Under the pieces are notes generated by a model, which made no database searches, was not told the DNA's origin, and was given only the letters and a program-made list of their open reading frames with translations. Shown piece by piece: positions 27,103 to 52,353 of a stretch of DNA of 64,000 nt. The position numbers and the translations under genes are program-made. Origin of the DNA: Candidatus Syntrophocurvum alkaliphilum. Its GTDB lineage: Bacteria; Bacillota; Syntrophomonadia; Syntrophomonadales; Syntrophomonadaceae. The stretch lies in NCBI RefSeq assembly GCF_009734445.1, contig NZ_CP046457.1:806001-870000 (forward strand), given 5' to 3'. Numbering within the stretch: the first letter of the stretch is position 1; the number at the start of each line of letters is the position of its first letter.

Positions 27103-29667
27103 TTAAACCAAACCTTTTAAACGGTATAAAAGGTTTAGAGCTTCCTTAGGGGTAATATCATCTGGATTTATTTTTTTTATTTCTTTAACTACTATATTTT
27201 CATCATCATTAAATAAACTTAATTGAGTTATATCTTGTTTATATTCATAATAATTAGTATTTTCTAAATGTACTAATATATCATTTGAACGTTGGATAAC
27301 TTCTTTAGGTAAACCCGCAAGCTTAGCAACATCTATTCCATAGCTCTTATCAGCTTTTCCTGGTAGGACTTTTTTCAGAAACACAACTTGATCCCCCGTT
27401 TCTAACACAGAAACGCATAAGTTAACCATTCCTTCAAATTCATCAGCAAGAGAAGTTAATTCATGATAATGAGTAGCAAAGAGTGTTTTAGCACCAATAT
27501 TTTCATGAATATATTCGCCTACAGCTCTAGCTATACTTAATCCGTCATAAGTACTTGTCCCTCTACCAATTTCATCAAGAATAATTAAACTGTTTTTTGT
27601 AGAATTATTAATAATATTTGCAACTTCAGTCATTTCCATCATAAAGGTACTTTGTCCTGATGCTAAATCATCTGATGCACCTACACGTGTAAAAATTTTA
27701 TCAACTATACCAATATTGGCATATTCAGCAGGAATAAAACAGCCTATTTGTGTCATTATTACTAACAAGGCTATTTGACGCATATATGTACTTTTACCAC
27801 CCATATTAGGACCAGTAATTATTAAAAATCTAGAATCATCCATGTTTAAATCAACGTTATTAGGAACAAATCGAGCATTAGCAAGAGTTTTTTCTACAAC
27901 TGGATGTCTACCAGCTTTAATTTCTATAGTTCCTTCTGAGTTTAATTGAGGACGTATATAATCATTTATATACGCTGTCTCAGACATTGAATATAATGTA
28001 TCTAGTATAGCAATTTGTGCTGCTGTTTTTTGAATTCTACTAGTATTTTCACTTATTTTTTGACGTATTTGCAAAAAGATTTTGTATTCTAATTCAAAAA
28101 GTTTATCTTTAGAAGTAATTATTTTTGTTTCAAAATCTTTAAGTTCTTCTGTTATGTATCTTTCTGTATTTGCTAGTGTTTGTTTCCTAATATAATCATC
28201 TGGAACAAGATGGAGATTTGATTTACTTACTTCTAGATAATATCCAAAAACCTTATTAAAACTTACTTTTAAGTTTTTAATTCCTGTTTTACTTTTTTCT
28301 TTTTGCTCATATTCTATTAACCATTGACTCCCTTGCTCCTTCAATTTGCGAAGTTCATCTATTTCAGAATTAAATCCTTTTTTAATTATATCTCCTTCTT
28401 TTATAATTACGGGTGCATCATCGTTAATAGAATTTTCTATAAAAGAAGAAATTTCGTCTAAGATATCTAATTCTGCTATTTTTGTTAAGTATTCCGAATG
28501 TGTACTAGAATATAAATCTGCTAATTCAGGCAACTTATTAATTGAATTTTTTAATGCTAACAAGTCCTTAGGGTTAGCAATATCAGCTCCAATACGCCCC
28601 ACTAATCTCTCTAAATCATAGATTGATTCTAGTAATTTTTTGGTATCAGTTCGTAAAATTAAATTGTTTCTAAGCTCTTCAACTGCATCAAGTCTTTTAT
28701 TTATATCATCAATCTTTTTTAATGGTTGTTCAATCCATTTTTTTAAGTTTCGTTTTCCCATCGCTGTACAGCATTTATCAATTATATTATATAGAGTCCC
28801 GTCTTTTTTTCTTTCTTTCATATTATAAATTAATTCGAGATTTTTTCGGGTTACGAAATCTAATTCGACAAACATACTTTCCTTATAAAACTTTACTTGT
28901 TTAATGTGTTTTAGACTTCTTTTATGTGTTTCACTTAAATATTTAATTATTACTGCAATAGACATAATACAGGTAGAACTATAATTTGTATTTAGTTCTT
29001 CTGTTATTTCTGCTTTATAATGGTCTTTTATGACTTGTTTGGCTTGTTCAAAATCTTCAATATAATCTACATTATTAAAATTAGTTGATATTATGTTTTC
29101 AAACTTTGTATCTTTTATTAAAGTGTTAGGAGAACTAATCAAGCACTCTGAAGGAAAAATCCTTAAAATTTCATTTTCTATTTCTAAATATGCGTTATCA
29201 CCTGAATATTCTGTAACCCAAAAATCACCTGTTGTTATATCAATGTATGATAGGCCAAATTTTTGTTCATATTCTACTACAGCGGCTAAATAATTATTTT
29301 CAGATTCATCTAACATATAATCTTCTAATATAGTTCCTGGAGTTATAACCCTAGTAACTTCTCTTTTCACTATTCCTTTTGCATCTTTTGGATCTTGAAC
29401 TTGCTCGCAAATTGCAACTTTATAGCCACGATTAATTAATTTATGTATGTAGTTATTTACAGAATGATATGGTACACCACACATGGGAATTTTATTTGAT
29501 CCACCATCTCTTGCTGTTAATACTATCTCAAGTTCTTTTGCGGCAATTTTAGCATCTTCAAAAAACATTTCATAAAAATCACCTAAACGGAAAAAGAGAA
29601 TAGCGTCTTGATATCGTTCTTTTATTTCTAAATACTGTTGTATCATAGGGGTATATTGAATAGTCAC
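27103..29667 (-). CDS. mutS: DNA mismatch repair protein MutS
   Basis: Recognises mismatches and small loops. At 854 residues it has the full layout: the mismatch-binding domain with the FYEMF motif near residue 30, core and clamp domains, and a C-terminal ATPase with GPNMGGKSTYMRQ, an STFMMEM signature and ILDEIGRGTSTYDG Walker B. It starts at GTG 29667 with CAGGAGG eight bases upstream. Downstream hydantoinase, deacetylase and mutL genes follow closely. Confidence 0.97.
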   Translation of the reverse strand: MTIQYTPMIQQYLEIKERYQDAILFFRLGDFYEMFFEDAKIAAKELEIVLTARDGGSNKIPMCGVPYHSVNNYIHKLINRGYKVAICEQVQDPKDAKGIVKREVTRVITPGTILEDYMLDESENNYLAAVVEYEQKFGLSYIDITTGDFWVTEYSGDNAYLEIENEILRIFPSECLISSPNTLIKDTKFENIISTNFNNVDYIEDFEQAKQVIKDHYKAEITEELNTNYSSTCIMSIAVIIKYLSETHKRSLKHIKQVKFYKESMFVELDFVTRKNLELIYNMKERKKDGTLYNIIDKCCTAMGKRNLKKWIEQPLKKIDDINKRLDAVEELRNNLILRTDTKKLLESIYDLERLVGRIGADIANPKDLLALKNSINKLPELADLYSSTHSEYLTKIAELDILDEISSFIENSINDDAPVIIKEGDIIKKGFNSEIDELRKLKEQGSQWLIEYEQKEKSKTGIKNLKVSFNKVFGYYLEVSKSNLHLVPDDYIRKQTLANTERYITEELKDFETKIITSKDKLFELEYKIFLQIRQKISENTSRIQKTAAQIAILDTLYSMSETAYINDYIRPQLNSEGTIEIKAGRHPVVEKTLANARFVPNNVDLNMDDSRFLIITGPNMGGKSTYMRQIALLVIMTQIGCFIPAEYANIGIVDKIFTRVGASDDLASGQSTFMMEMTEVANIINNSTKNSLIILDEIGRGTSTYDGLSIARAVGEYIHENIGAKTLFATHYHELTSLADEFEGMVNLCVSVLETGDQVVFLKKVLPGKADKSYGIDVAKLAGLPKEVIQRSNDILVHLENTNYYEYKQDITQLSLFNDDENIVVKEIKKINPDDITPKEALNLLYRLKGLV

Positions 29668-30678: not shown

Positions 30679-31068
30679 CTATTGACTACAATCTGAACCA
30701 CATGTGCCGCAATCAGATGGTGCGCAGTTTTCTCCACCAGATATTGCTTGGTTCATTGCAAAGTAAACTCCTTGCATTAAATTATCAAATTTTTCTTGTG
30801 CAGCAATTAATTCTTTTACAAGGCTATTACTATTTAGTTGCTGTTCTAAAATTTGCACATGGCTTTCTTCATTATCAGGTACAATTATACCTTCATTAGC
30901 TTTGTTGTCTAATTTAGTTTTAGCATCCTGATAACGCATAATTAAATCATATGCCTCTTTGTCCTCGGTAAGTTTTGCTTGAACATCTTTTAAGTTCTGA
31001 ATTTCATCAGAACTAGCAATGGCGTTTCCTAAATCGAATGCCATTTTTACAATTGATTCTGTACTCAA
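30679..31068 (-). CDS. YlbF/YmcA family protein with Cys-rich tail
   Basis: A 129-residue helical protein of the YlbF/YmcA (Com_YlbF) family. In Bacillus, YlbF, YmcA and YaaT form a complex that assists RNase Y and affects competence, biofilm and sporulation; it has been reported to carry Fe-S clusters. Residues 1-105 match the helical core. The C-terminal tail holds C115, C120, C123 and C127, a plausible cluster- or metal-binding group. It starts at TTG 31068 after AGGAGGAG. It follows miaB, as ymcA follows miaB in Bacillus. Confidence 0.85.
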   Translation of the reverse strand: MSTESIVKMAFDLGNAIASSDEIQNLKDVQAKLTEDKEAYDLIMRYQDAKTKLDNKANEGIIVPDNEESHVQILEQQLNSNSLVKELIAAQEKFDNLMQGVYFAMNQAISGGENCAPSDCGTCGSDCSQ

Positions 31069-31111: not shown

Positions 31112-32446
31112 TTATGATACATAATCACCAAATAAAGAAAACGTTTTTCCTTCTTCTATTCTAACATTTATAAGCTGTCCTATTAAGTCTTTAGAACCAG
31201 AAAATATAATTATTCTATTACAACGAGTTCTACCTGTTAACCTCTCAGTATTAGTTTTACTAGTACCTTCAACTAAAATTTCAACTGTTTTTCCCTCCAA
31301 ACTTTTATTTATTTCAGTTGCAATTGAATATTGTAATTTATTCAATCGGTTTAAACGCTCTTTTTTTGTTTCTAATTCAATTTGTTCTTCAAGCGAAGCA
31401 GCTTTTGTTCCAGTCCTAACTGAATACATAAAGGTAAATGCAGCATCAAATTTTACTTTATCAACCATATCTAAGGTATCTTCGAAATCTTGTTCAGTTT
31501 CTCCGGGAAATCCAACTATTAAATCGCTTGTAATTGATACTCCCGGTATTCGATCTCTCATTCTTTTTGTTAATTCTAAATAATGATCTCTTGTGTAATT
31601 ACGATTCATAAGTTTCAAAACCTTATTGCTTCCTGCTTGTAAAGGAACGTGTATATGCTCGCACACCTTATTATTATTTCTAATAGCATCTATTAAATTA
31701 TCAGACATATCTTTTGGATGAGAAGTTGTAAATCTAATTCGTTCTATTCCATTAATTTCATTAACTTTATATAACAATCTGGAAAAATCAGTTTCATTTT
31801 GTAGGCCTTTACCATATGAATTAACATTTTGACCTAAAAGAGTTACCTCTTTATATCCTAATTCAGCTAACTCTTTTATTTCAGCAACTATATCTTGAGG
31901 TTCTCTGCTTCTTTCTCTACCTCGGGTATAAGGGACAATACAATAACTACAAAAATTATTACAACCATACATTATATTGACAAAAGCACTAATACCTTCC
32001 TTTCTTTTAGAAGGTAATGATTCTACTACTGTACCCTCTTTATCCCAAACTCTTAGTATAGGATTTTTTTCCTGATTTGCTTCCTCTATTAAACGTGGCA
32101 ACTCATGTACATTATGTGTTCCAAAAAGTATATCTACACCTGTATTTTTTAATTTTTGCTGTACCTCATTAAGTTGAGCCATACAGCCTCCAAAAGCAAT
32201 TAATAGTTCTTTATTATTTTTTTTAAATTTATTTATTTCTCCTAATTTTCCATATACTTTGTTTTCAGCAGAATGACGTACACTACAAGTATTAAATATA
32301 ACTAAATCAGCATCTGAAGGGCTATTCGTTTCAATATACCCCATAGATTCAACTAATCCTGCTATGATTTCTGAATCTCTAACATTCATTTGACAACCAT
32401 AAGTTAATATATGATATTTTTTTATTTCTTCACTATAATCAACCAT
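31112..32446 (-). CDS. miaB: tRNA-2-methylthio-N6-dimethylallyladenosine synthase
   Basis: A radical SAM methylthiotransferase acting on i6A37 of tRNA, the product of MiaA. The 444-residue protein has the N-terminal UPF0004 domain with TYGCQMN, NTCSVR and a GGCMAQ cysteine for the auxiliary cluster, the radical SAM motif CNNFCSYC, and a C-terminal TRAM domain. It starts at ATG 32446 with GGAGGAT upstream. Together with miaA it makes the pathway complete within the window. Confidence 0.97.
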   Translation of the reverse strand: MVDYSEEIKKYHILTYGCQMNVRDSEIIAGLVESMGYIETNSPSDADLVIFNTCSVRHSAENKVYGKLGEINKFKKNNKELLIAFGGCMAQLNEVQQKLKNTGVDILFGTHNVHELPRLIEEANQEKNPILRVWDKEGTVVESLPSKRKEGISAFVNIMYGCNNFCSYCIVPYTRGRERSREPQDIVAEIKELAELGYKEVTLLGQNVNSYGKGLQNETDFSRLLYKVNEINGIERIRFTTSHPKDMSDNLIDAIRNNNKVCEHIHVPLQAGSNKVLKLMNRNYTRDHYLELTKRMRDRIPGVSITSDLIVGFPGETEQDFEDTLDMVDKVKFDAAFTFMYSVRTGTKAASLEEQIELETKKERLNRLNKLQYSIATEINKSLEGKTVEILVEGTSKTNTERLTGRTRCNRIIIFSGSKDLIGQLINVRIEEGKTFSLFGDYVS

Positions 32447-32718: not shown

Positions 32719-32757
32719 AAAAATAGATAGACAATATAGTCTATCTATTTAAATATA
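32719..32757 (-). terminator. Intrinsic terminator after the selenoprotein gene
   Basis: On the minus strand AAATAGATAGAC/GTCTATCTATTT stem followed by TTTTATTTTG, 12 bases after the selenoprotein stop codon. Confidence 0.85.
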
Positions 32758-32769
32758 TGGTAAAAAAAT

Positions 32770-33126
32770 TTAGTCTTTTAATTTGTCATTAACGGCATTT
32801 TTAATCTCATCAACCATTATTTTACCTGCATATTTTGGTTCTCCATTAATAAATGTAATTGGAAATGGATAACCCATACGCATAACTTTTTCCATTATTG
32901 GATAATCATCCATTCCTTCTTCATCAGTATCTACATATTTAACTTCAATTTTATCACCAAAAGATTGTTTTAATTCATTTCGTAATAAATCTGTTGATTC
33001 TTTGACACTCATAGTTGGTCCACAACTATCTGCTACAGCACAATCAGCAGAACAGCTTCAACCTCCTGCAACAGCTTTGGTTCCTTGAAGCACTTCTATG
33101 ATAACTTTTTCTTTATTTTCAGCCAT
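32770..33126 (-). CDS. Thioredoxin-like selenoprotein with in-frame UGA (Sec23)
   Basis: The reading frame from ATG 33126 to the TAA at 32770 contains one TGA (33058-33060), codon 23. Read as selenocysteine it gives 118 residues. ATG 33126 has a perfect AAGGAGG seven bases upstream, while the next in-frame ATG (33012) has none. The N-terminus reads VAGG-U-SCSADC, then further cysteines C25, C29 and C35. The C-terminal half (KYVDTDEEGMDDYP, YPFPITFINGEP) looks like the thioredoxin-fold small redox family with a PITFING cis-proline region. Directly after the TGA is an 11-pair hairpin with a bulged U. Function is probably thiol-disulfide or selenol redox chemistry. A frame broken by mutation is the alternative. 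Confidence 0.8.
33024..33057 (-). promoter_or_regulatory. SECIS-like hairpin immediately after the in-frame UGA
   Basis: Starting at the base after TGA, the minus strand folds as AGCUG-(bulged U)-UCUGCU, an 11-base loop GAUUGUGCUGU, then AGCAGA-UAGUU. This gives 11 pairs including two G-U pairs. A bulged U in the stem and GU in the apical loop are features of the E. coli fdhF SECIS recognised by SelB. Confidence 0.65.
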
Positions 33127-33210
33127 TTATAAGCCTCCTTGAAAGTTGTTAATATGGATAATAACAGTTTAGTTCATATTTTACAAGTTTTACAATAACT
33201 AATTTTAAAA

Positions 33211-34575: not shown

Positions 34576-36384
34576 TTAGTTTTCATTTTCTTCCTTAATC
34601 TCAATACCTACCATTTTCATCAGATATTTAGCATTTGTTGTTTTAGAACGTCCTTTTCTAAGTTTGTAGTCGAAGATAATTTCACCATTTTTATATGTTT
34701 CAGTAAAATGATAATTCATAATTCTGCCACTATTATCATTTTCAAAATCACAAAGCTCATAATCATGTGTTGAGATTACCCCTATTACCCAATCTTTATT
34801 TAAATTAATAAGGACGTTTTTTGCACCTATAATTCTATCTCGAGAATTAGTTCCTCTAAAAACTTCATCTATCAAAAATATCATTGGTTTTTCTTCTTTT
34901 GAATGATTAATAATCAATTTAATGCGTAATAATTCAGCATAAAAAGTAGATATACCAGCATTTAAATCATCAGCTAATCTCATAGAGGTAAATATATCCA
35001 TTATAGAACATTTGAAATTTTTAGCACACACCGCTGACCCAGCATAAGCTAAAACAAGATTTATCCCTATTGTTCTTAATAATGTTGTTTTACCAGACAT
35101 GTTAGAGCCTGTAATTATTAATATCTGATTATCAATAGTAAGGTTATTTGAAACTCTTTGTTTTTCATTAATTAGTGGATGACCAATTTGTTCAGTTAAA
35201 ATAGTAAGCTTATTTTGATCAAATTTGGGATAACACCAATTAGGATTTATTTGAGAAGTTAGAGCTAAACTAGATAGAGCTTCATACATTCCAATATTTA
35301 AAATCCAGTCTCGCAAAGCTAAGCCTGATTCATCTCTCCATTTTTCTAAAGAAAATACACATCGAAAATCCCAAAAAAACAAACTGTTAATGAAGAAATG
35401 AACTATAGGATTGTATTGTAGAGCAATTGCACCTACAATCTTATCTAAATTTTTTATCTGTTGTGATGCAGGTTTATTTCTATTATATAATTTAGATTTT
35501 AGTTTTAATAAATAGTCATTATTAAATTTTTCTTCTTCAATTACTTTAAATATTTTTTGATAAGCATTTATTTTGTTTTTATTTGAATAAACTGGTTCTA
35601 AAATTTTAAATATTTTTCCATAATTAAATATGTTAATAACTATTTGAGCTATTAACAAACTTAAAGGGAAAATTAATAAAATCAAATCAAAAATCCATAA
35701 TAAAAATAAAAATATTGTTATTATCGGAAGTAAATAGATTACATATATAAAAAATTTATTTTGAATTAATTTCAAATCATTTTCAGTGTATTTTAATAAT
35801 TTTTCTGGATTTTCAAATAAATCCCCATTCATTCCTTCACATTGTAAGTGTTGACAAAAATCTAACTTAGACGATAATTCTTTTATCGCCTGTTGTCTTT
35901 TTTCAATGCTTTTTATTTCATTTGTAGGATTAGATAATATATTTTTAAGAGTAGTTCTGCCATAATATGTATTAGCATTATTTAACCATTGATAAAGTGA
36001 AGCACTACCAAAAATATCTAAATCATCTGTAAATGGATGATTAGAGTCTTTAAATTCAATACCATCATCAATAAAGCTAGTCCAGCTACCTTCTATTCTA
36101 TCAATACATCTTTTATTGGCTTCTTCTAAAAAACTAAATCTCGTAGCTTCATTGTTAGCTTCTATACTTTTAGTTACCACATAGAAAAATGTAATTGTTG
36201 ATATCAGTAATACAAGGTAACCATATGCATCTTTAGAATACAAAAAAGCCGCAATTGTCAATGACAACCCAAGTACAAATAAAAGTAATCTTAGATTGCT
36301 TAACCTATAGGATTTCCTTTGCATTTTTTCTTTCTTTTTTTTATACTTTTTTAAACGATTATTAAATATGATTTTTGTATCCAT
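34576..36384 (-). CDS. Membrane-associated MutS-like ATPase
   Basis: A 602-residue protein with a MutS-type C-terminal ATPase: Walker A GSNMSGKTT, a STFYAELLRI signature and Walker B FLIDEVFRGTNSRDR. It lacks the mismatch-binding domain. Two hydrophobic pairs (about residues 28-68 and 215-255) predict membrane helices, which true MutS does not have. Members of this group occur in Firmicutes; their job is not established. It starts at ATG 36384. Its stop codon touches MITE copy 3. The deacetylase gene upstream is 14 bases away, so they are likely co-transcribed. Confidence 0.85.
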   Translation of the reverse strand: MDTKIIFNNRLKKYKKKKEKMQRKSYRLSNLRLLLFVLGLSLTIAAFLYSKDAYGYLVLLISTITFFYVVTKSIEANNEATRFSFLEEANKRCIDRIEGSWTSFIDDGIEFKDSNHPFTDDLDIFGSASLYQWLNNANTYYGRTTLKNILSNPTNEIKSIEKRQQAIKELSSKLDFCQHLQCEGMNGDLFENPEKLLKYTENDLKLIQNKFFIYVIYLLPIITIFLFLLWIFDLILLIFPLSLLIAQIVINIFNYGKIFKILEPVYSNKNKINAYQKIFKVIEEEKFNNDYLLKLKSKLYNRNKPASQQIKNLDKIVGAIALQYNPIVHFFINSLFFWDFRCVFSLEKWRDESGLALRDWILNIGMYEALSSLALTSQINPNWCYPKFDQNKLTILTEQIGHPLINEKQRVSNNLTIDNQILIITGSNMSGKTTLLRTIGINLVLAYAGSAVCAKNFKCSIMDIFTSMRLADDLNAGISTFYAELLRIKLIINHSKEEKPMIFLIDEVFRGTNSRDRIIGAKNVLINLNKDWVIGVISTHDYELCDFENDNSGRIMNYHFTETYKNGEIIFDYKLRKGRSKTTNAKYLMKMVGIEIKEENEN

Positions 36385-52104: not shown

Positions 52105-52151
52105 TTATAAGTAAATAGGTGTTAATATTTAACAACTAAATATTAAATAGT

Positions 52152-52312
52152 TAATGGTGCTCAATAATTTGAGATAATAGGGAATTGGGTTAGAATCCCA
52201 AACGGGCCCGCCACTGTATTGGTAAGTCTAATATATTATTACCACTCCAAAACTGGGGGAAGGTTATATTAGATGATGACCCTAAGTCAGGAGACCTGCC
52301 TTAAACTATATT
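52152..52312 (+). promoter_or_regulatory. Cobalamin (AdoCbl-type) riboswitch
   Basis: The conserved parts are in order: GGTGCTC near the start, GGGAATTGGGTTAGAATCCC hairpin, the core ACGGGCCCGCCACTGT, a variable arm, and the B12 box AGTCAGGAGACCTGCC at about 52285-52300. Ends are approximate. A terminator hairpin follows, so high cobalamin should stop transcription of the downstream dehydrogenase operon. Confidence 0.95.
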
Positions 52313-52353
52313 GATCCTTTATCAAAAAGGCATCTAGTAGTAATGGATGATGG

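Follow-up and report, generated by a model that had tools for sequence, protein, structure and literature searches.

A predicted thioredoxin-fold selenoprotein family of anaerobic Bacillota in which selenocysteine occurs at any of three cysteine positions

DUF1462/YuzD and ArsD, both placed in the thioredoxin-like clan (PMC3091736), are among the described families closest to the protein reported here. DUF1462 (PF07315; structure 1xg8 from S. aureus) shares with it the thioredoxin fold, a similar length and a Cys motif following the first strand, but classical members carry a simple CASC motif made of Cys only, whereas the longer loop of our protein contains a predicted selenocysteine (Sec) together with three Cys. 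ArsD (PF06953; structures 3mwh and 3kgk) has the same fold, a three-Cys loop at the same position, a C-G-P context, and the company of arsenic-resistance (ars) genes that is also kept by relatives of our protein; however, it bears a vicinal CC and no Sec, and the similarity is distant. Small thioredoxin-like selenoproteins missed by annotation were likewise described in Brachyspira as Sec.1 and Sec.2 (PF13192; PMC5330540), the latter with a U-x-C motif, but there Sec is part of a short extension at the N-terminus, ahead of the thioredoxin domain, and not of the active-site loop. HUIPC (NF047660), also a small thioredoxin-fold selenoprotein, shows a weak likeness (E 0.014 for our protein, 0.0013 for the best member of the family reported here) and a different motif.

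The gene was found in a window of 64,000 nucleotides (30-32% GC) from the genome of Candidatus Syntrophocurvum alkaliphilum. Its product scores below the cut-off of every Pfam model, and far below that of every NCBIfam model. The motif is absent from the 119-family prokaryotic selenoprotein catalogue of 2026 (PMC13188914), although the family may recently have been named elsewhere, and none of the ten S. wolfei selenoproteins of a 2006 survey (PMC1794560) is recognisable as this family. The families of Haft and Tolstoy 2025 were compared through NCBIfam and a review table. Selenoproteins as such are a known kind; the unusual feature here is a Sec that roams. We conclude that the protein almost certainly belongs to a selenoprotein family widespread in anaerobic Bacillota, contained in none of the catalogues compared, with Sec at any of three Cys positions.

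An ordinary gene call would cut this gene short: the table-11 ORF list for the window contains only 80 residues of it, starting at ATG 33012, which has no ribosome site. A preliminary description of the locus had noted this and proposed that the frame continues upstream through one TGA to an ATG with a perfect Shine-Dalgarno sequence. The ORF list and the sequence confirmed both points: the reading frame runs on the minus strand from an ATG at 33126-33124 to a stop codon ending at 32770, with a single in-frame TGA between them, and the coordinates, the translation and the placement of U at residue 23 were all correct (Table 1). Since homologues conserve the protein sequence N-terminal to the TGA, Cys homologues are free of stops at its site, and the TGAs of homologues fall on Cys columns, the 118-residue frame with its TGA is far beyond chance. 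The intrinsic terminator on its 3' side separates the gene from miaB, so that it appears to form a separate unit.

Table 1. Features of the selenoprotein locus and its conserved neighbours (window coordinates).
Feature	Position	Strand	Basis
Predicted selenoprotein gene, 118 aa, thioredoxin-like fold, motif GG-U-S-C-SAD-C-AVADS-C-G	32770..33126	-	sequence, homologues, fold
In-frame TGA, codon/residue 23, predicted Sec, context VAGG-U-SCSADC	33058..33060	-	column U/C in homologues
Shine-Dalgarno AAGGAGG, 7-nt spacer to ATG	33134..33140	-	sequence
Hairpin abutting the UGA, AGCUGU.UCUGCU, loop AGCAGAUAGUU, candidate bacterial SECIS	33024..33057	-	fold, homologues
Intrinsic terminator, 12-pair stem and T tail, 3' of the selenoprotein gene	32721..32750	-	1 found vs 0.2 expected
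miaB, downstream gene; a conserved neighbour within the window's clade	31112..32446	-	TIGR01574, 551.7 bits
YlbF/YmcA-type protein, C-terminal tail rich in Cys; conserved neighbour	30679..31068	-	PF06133, E 2.6e-20
mutS, conserved neighbour	27103..29667	-	read from translation

The genome, a single 2.36-Mb contig, carries all four genes whose presence had been proposed as a check on the selenoprotein reading. They form one cluster composed of selA (genome position 2095081), selB (2096494, 385 bits), tRNA-Sec (2101701, 71.5 bits; called tRNA-SeC with anticodon tca (UCA) by ARAGORN) and selD (2105522), the last with its own in-frame TGA at the standard place (MVRAAG-U-AAKIGPG). This gene set, together with the Sec-bearing selD, indicates that Sec decoding is very probably in use in Candidatus Syntrophocurvum alkaliphilum. 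Among the named genomes compared, the organism is closest to Syntrophomonadaceae.

A search of 101 related genomes using the window protein with its TGA read as Cys retrieved homologues, mostly full-length, in 50 of them. TGA-bearing members occur in 36 genomes, 35 of which have selB above the curated cut-off. The sole exception, G008 (member L063), is a 92%-complete draft without selB or selC above cut-off, and other species of its genus have selB; the gap probably reflects an incomplete assembly. Contrasting genomes with and without a Sec system was uninformative because nearly all relatives have one. When the search was broadened across the phylum (85 of 398 genomes), further TGA members turned up with the UGA in the same loop, such as RRTG-U-GPSQSQ and ECYS-U-GTLPT. 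A search of plasmid records found no relative.

Members were read out in frame, and 70 homologues were aligned. The column of the window's UGA (column 41) contains 29 U, 39 C, one D and one S, which is the U or Cys pattern anticipated for this position. The Cys versions suspected beforehand thus exist, and they run through the TGA site without a stop. Furthermore, the region before the TGA, whose absence or unrelatedness in homologues would have spoken against the extended frame, is present and related in them, Cys homologues included, and is conserved as V/I-E-V/I-x-x-G. Column 48 has U in two members (L029 and L031, both C at column 41) and C in 54, and column 55 has U in five (the FGSRxxDxCxxGGUGP group) and C in 62. 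One more U, at column 40 and adjoining a Cys, is probably misaligned by one position. Comparison of close relatives with GG-U-AG-C-SSAAS-C-G and SG-C-SG-U-ASAAS-C-G indicates that the predicted shift of Sec between them is beyond alignment doubt.

On a tree of 69 rows, the Sec/Cys state required 17 changes, at least 7 of which are forced by well-supported branches, and the state differs between sister rows and between tandem paralogues of one genome (L030). Selenoproteins typically evolve with such repeated exchange of Sec and Cys. Some hits contained a TAG or TAA, and in those read out these stops mostly fall outside the gene ends. In one Cys member (L015, G015:C15), a TAG interrupts the N-terminal strand (VEV*QGT), reflecting either an error in the draft assembly or decay of the copy. 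We also observed a second, widespread sub-group with the consensus FGSRxxDxCxxGGUGPxxSxEE (L077, L080, L084, L086, L089 and several of L151-L171), with the predicted Sec in the third Cys column and a distinct hairpin following the UGA; neither Pfam nor NCBIfam has a model specific to it.

The hairpin next to the window's UGA has a folding energy of -11.4 kcal/mol, which by itself is no better than that of shuffled sequences (z -0.70). Its outer stem is nevertheless found in 16 of 16 homologues of equal length, with G-U, A-U and G-C alternatives. In the GGUGP group, a hairpin of 8 pairs lies 9 nt 3' of the UGA and shows compensatory changes. Over 65 UGA genes, the fold energy after the UGA had a mean z of -0.97 relative to synonymous shuffles, compared to -0.13 for other segments of the same genes (Mann-Whitney p 1e-8, paired p 8e-7, values that are optimistic because the 65 sequences are related). 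These within-gene controls replaced a comparison of Sec and Cys members confined to the loop, which gave a weak difference (p 0.03). In L029 and L031, whose predicted Sec is at column 48, the hairpin anchored to the UGA of each is strong (z -2.3 and -2.6). Homology and these RNA statistics suggest that codon 23 would be decoded as Sec by SelB and tRNA-Sec, aided by the RNA hairpin located just 3' of the UGA.

An AlphaFold2 model built from 30 sequences (mean pLDDT 70.8, below 50 at residues 18-37, the Sec loop) gave the element order E8-14 H41-59 E60-66 H76-84 E90-93 E96-100 H105-117. This is the strand-helix-strand-helix-strand-strand-helix order of the thioredoxin fold with a Pro before the third strand, and that residue, P89, is invariant in the whole-family alignment A1. 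Profile (E 4.5e-9) and fold (E 6.5e-4) searches of the PDB both ranked 1xg8 first; among the fold matches, thioredoxins and ArsD came next, with 3mwh at rank 4. The thioredoxin-like fold predicted earlier for the part downstream of the TGA is thus supported by a model of moderate confidence and by these matches. Taken together, recoding has good support, and the window gene very likely encodes a selenoprotein of this thioredoxin-fold family.

Profile comparisons by hhalign placed DUF1462 nearer than ArsD, with probabilities of 73 for the window's clade, 95 for the wider family and 96 for the GGUGP group against DUF1462, and of 65, 80 and 95, respectively, against ArsD; reversed controls gave 5 and 22. 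A DUF1462 match at E <=0.01 was obtained for 35 of 68 members, and a few relatives exceed the gathering cut-off. Since the window protein falls below that of PF07315 (22.8 vs 25 bits) while some relatives lie above it, we consider it related to DUF1462 but do not file it as a member. It did not match PF06953 (ArsD), and it has no vicinal CC. PF13192 (Thioredoxin_3) reached E 0.14 with the 80-residue part and gave no match with the whole protein, and NF047660 (HUIPC_Trx_selen) scored 15.5 bits against a cut-off of 105. Three loci (L174, L176 and L177) encode a DUF1462-like protein with CxxU, KRECYSUGTLPTQEEL, apparently a Sec counterpart of the CASC motif seen in YuzD-type proteins.

We infer both Sec incorporation and the function of the protein. 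The product would be a 118-residue cytoplasmic thioredoxin-fold protein, kin of DUF1462 and more distantly of ArsD, with Sec and three Cys in the long loop that joins strand 1 to helix 1. This loop would supply three interchangeable Cys/Sec positions. On the basis of the loop anatomy and of relatives in ars operons, we favour a selenol/thiol protein that would bind and pass on soft metals or metalloids, or reduce disulfides. Because the window gene has no ars operon of its own, is followed by a terminator before miaB, and lies in a genome where a search for ArsD found none, this proposal does not derive from its own neighbourhood.

The two sides of this proposal are rated about equal. The protein may be a classical thiol-disulfide or peroxide oxidoreductase, a reading held at a little under even odds, in which Sec23 would be the nucleophile, Cys25 or Cys29 the resolving residue and thioredoxin reductase the reductant, the ars links of relatives reflecting a reductant role for arsenate reductase. 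Most catalogued selenoproteins of thioredoxin fold are thought to be redox-active (PMC13188914), small CxxC thioredoxins adjoin members at three loci (L192, L193 and L195), a neighbour at L201 reads as a thioredoxin reductase, and both UxxC and CxxU arrangements are present among members. On the other hand, there is no fixed CxxC order, Sec occurs in three columns whereas catalytic selenoenzymes normally keep it in one place, and L092/L017 have lost the Cys two residues after Sec.

With comparable plausibility, the protein could resemble a metallochaperone, its three loop Cys/Sec ligands binding a soft metal(loid) such as As(III), in the manner of ArsD, and passing it to an exporter. The loop position and its C-G-P/T context are those of ArsD, and the ArsD profile probabilities and fold match given above point in the same direction. 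Furthermore, arsenic-resistance clusters contain Cys and Sec members alike: arsR and acr3 adjoin L191 and L194, arsC adjoins L192, arsR adjoins L193 and L195, acr3 adjoins L206, and arsR-arsD-arsA-arsA lies directly upstream of the Sec member at L196. Pfam, NCBIfam and ArsD searches verified these neighbours, whereas the arsR at L193 and the first of the two arsA genes at L196 were identified by reading the translation. Interchange of Sec over three columns is also easier to understand if the chalcogens act jointly, as in an ArsD-like three-ligand site, than with a fixed CxxC. Against this reading, the window copy lies outside any ars operon, the host genome has no ArsD, although it carries an acr3 elsewhere, and DUF1462 is a closer relative than ArsD. 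A separate locus (L219, G050:C75) matches ArsD (63.5 bits) with one in-frame TGA and could represent either ArsD with a Sec or a damaged copy.

A role as partner of MiaB and the adjoining YlbF/Ric-type protein in sulfur or Fe-S handling seems unlikely. In the window's clade, a lone selenoprotein-family gene precedes miaB, the YlbF-type gene, mutS and a hydantoinase-like gene at 10-16 of 30 loci (14-16 for miaB-ylbF-mutS). At L203, a Cys paralogue heads a likely operon with miaB, and the Ric proteins of B. subtilis hold [4Fe-4S] clusters ligated by C-terminal Cys (PMC6751060). However, T-runs or terminators separate the family gene from the miaB-side genes at most loci, leading us to mark this link down, and other members are located ahead of riboflavin genes or in ars operons. 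The miaB-ymcA-mutS order in Bacillus, which exists there without a gene of this family, also counts against the link. The Cys-rich tail of the YlbF/YmcA-type protein in the window reads NCAPSDCGTCGSDCSQ, and the halo-CC-star HcsL model matched the protein at E 2e-12, far under its cut-off. Elsewhere in the window, we observed a cobalamin riboswitch (52138-52317, plus strand, 115 bits) and, from translation alone, a second MutS-like ATPase gene of 602 aa (34576-36384, minus strand).

Finally, that the TGA is a true stop, leaving an 80-residue protein or a decayed gene, is very improbable, as gene finders would call the 80 residues but their start lacks a ribosome site, the upstream half is conserved as protein, dozens of species carry a TGA in this very Cys column, and the genome has a complete Sec system.

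More speculatively, the family could form its own class of proteins that chaperone metals through a selenolate or bind soft metal(loid)s, possibly with three equivalent Cys/Sec ligands among which the single Sec and its hairpin can move. The family is easy to miss, and in many anaerobic Bacillota its addition to annotation would mend genes that are now truncated or absent. The repeated movement of Sec over three Cys positions within one family provides a natural experiment on the need for selenium, and the links to ars operons suggest a testable role in metalloid handling.
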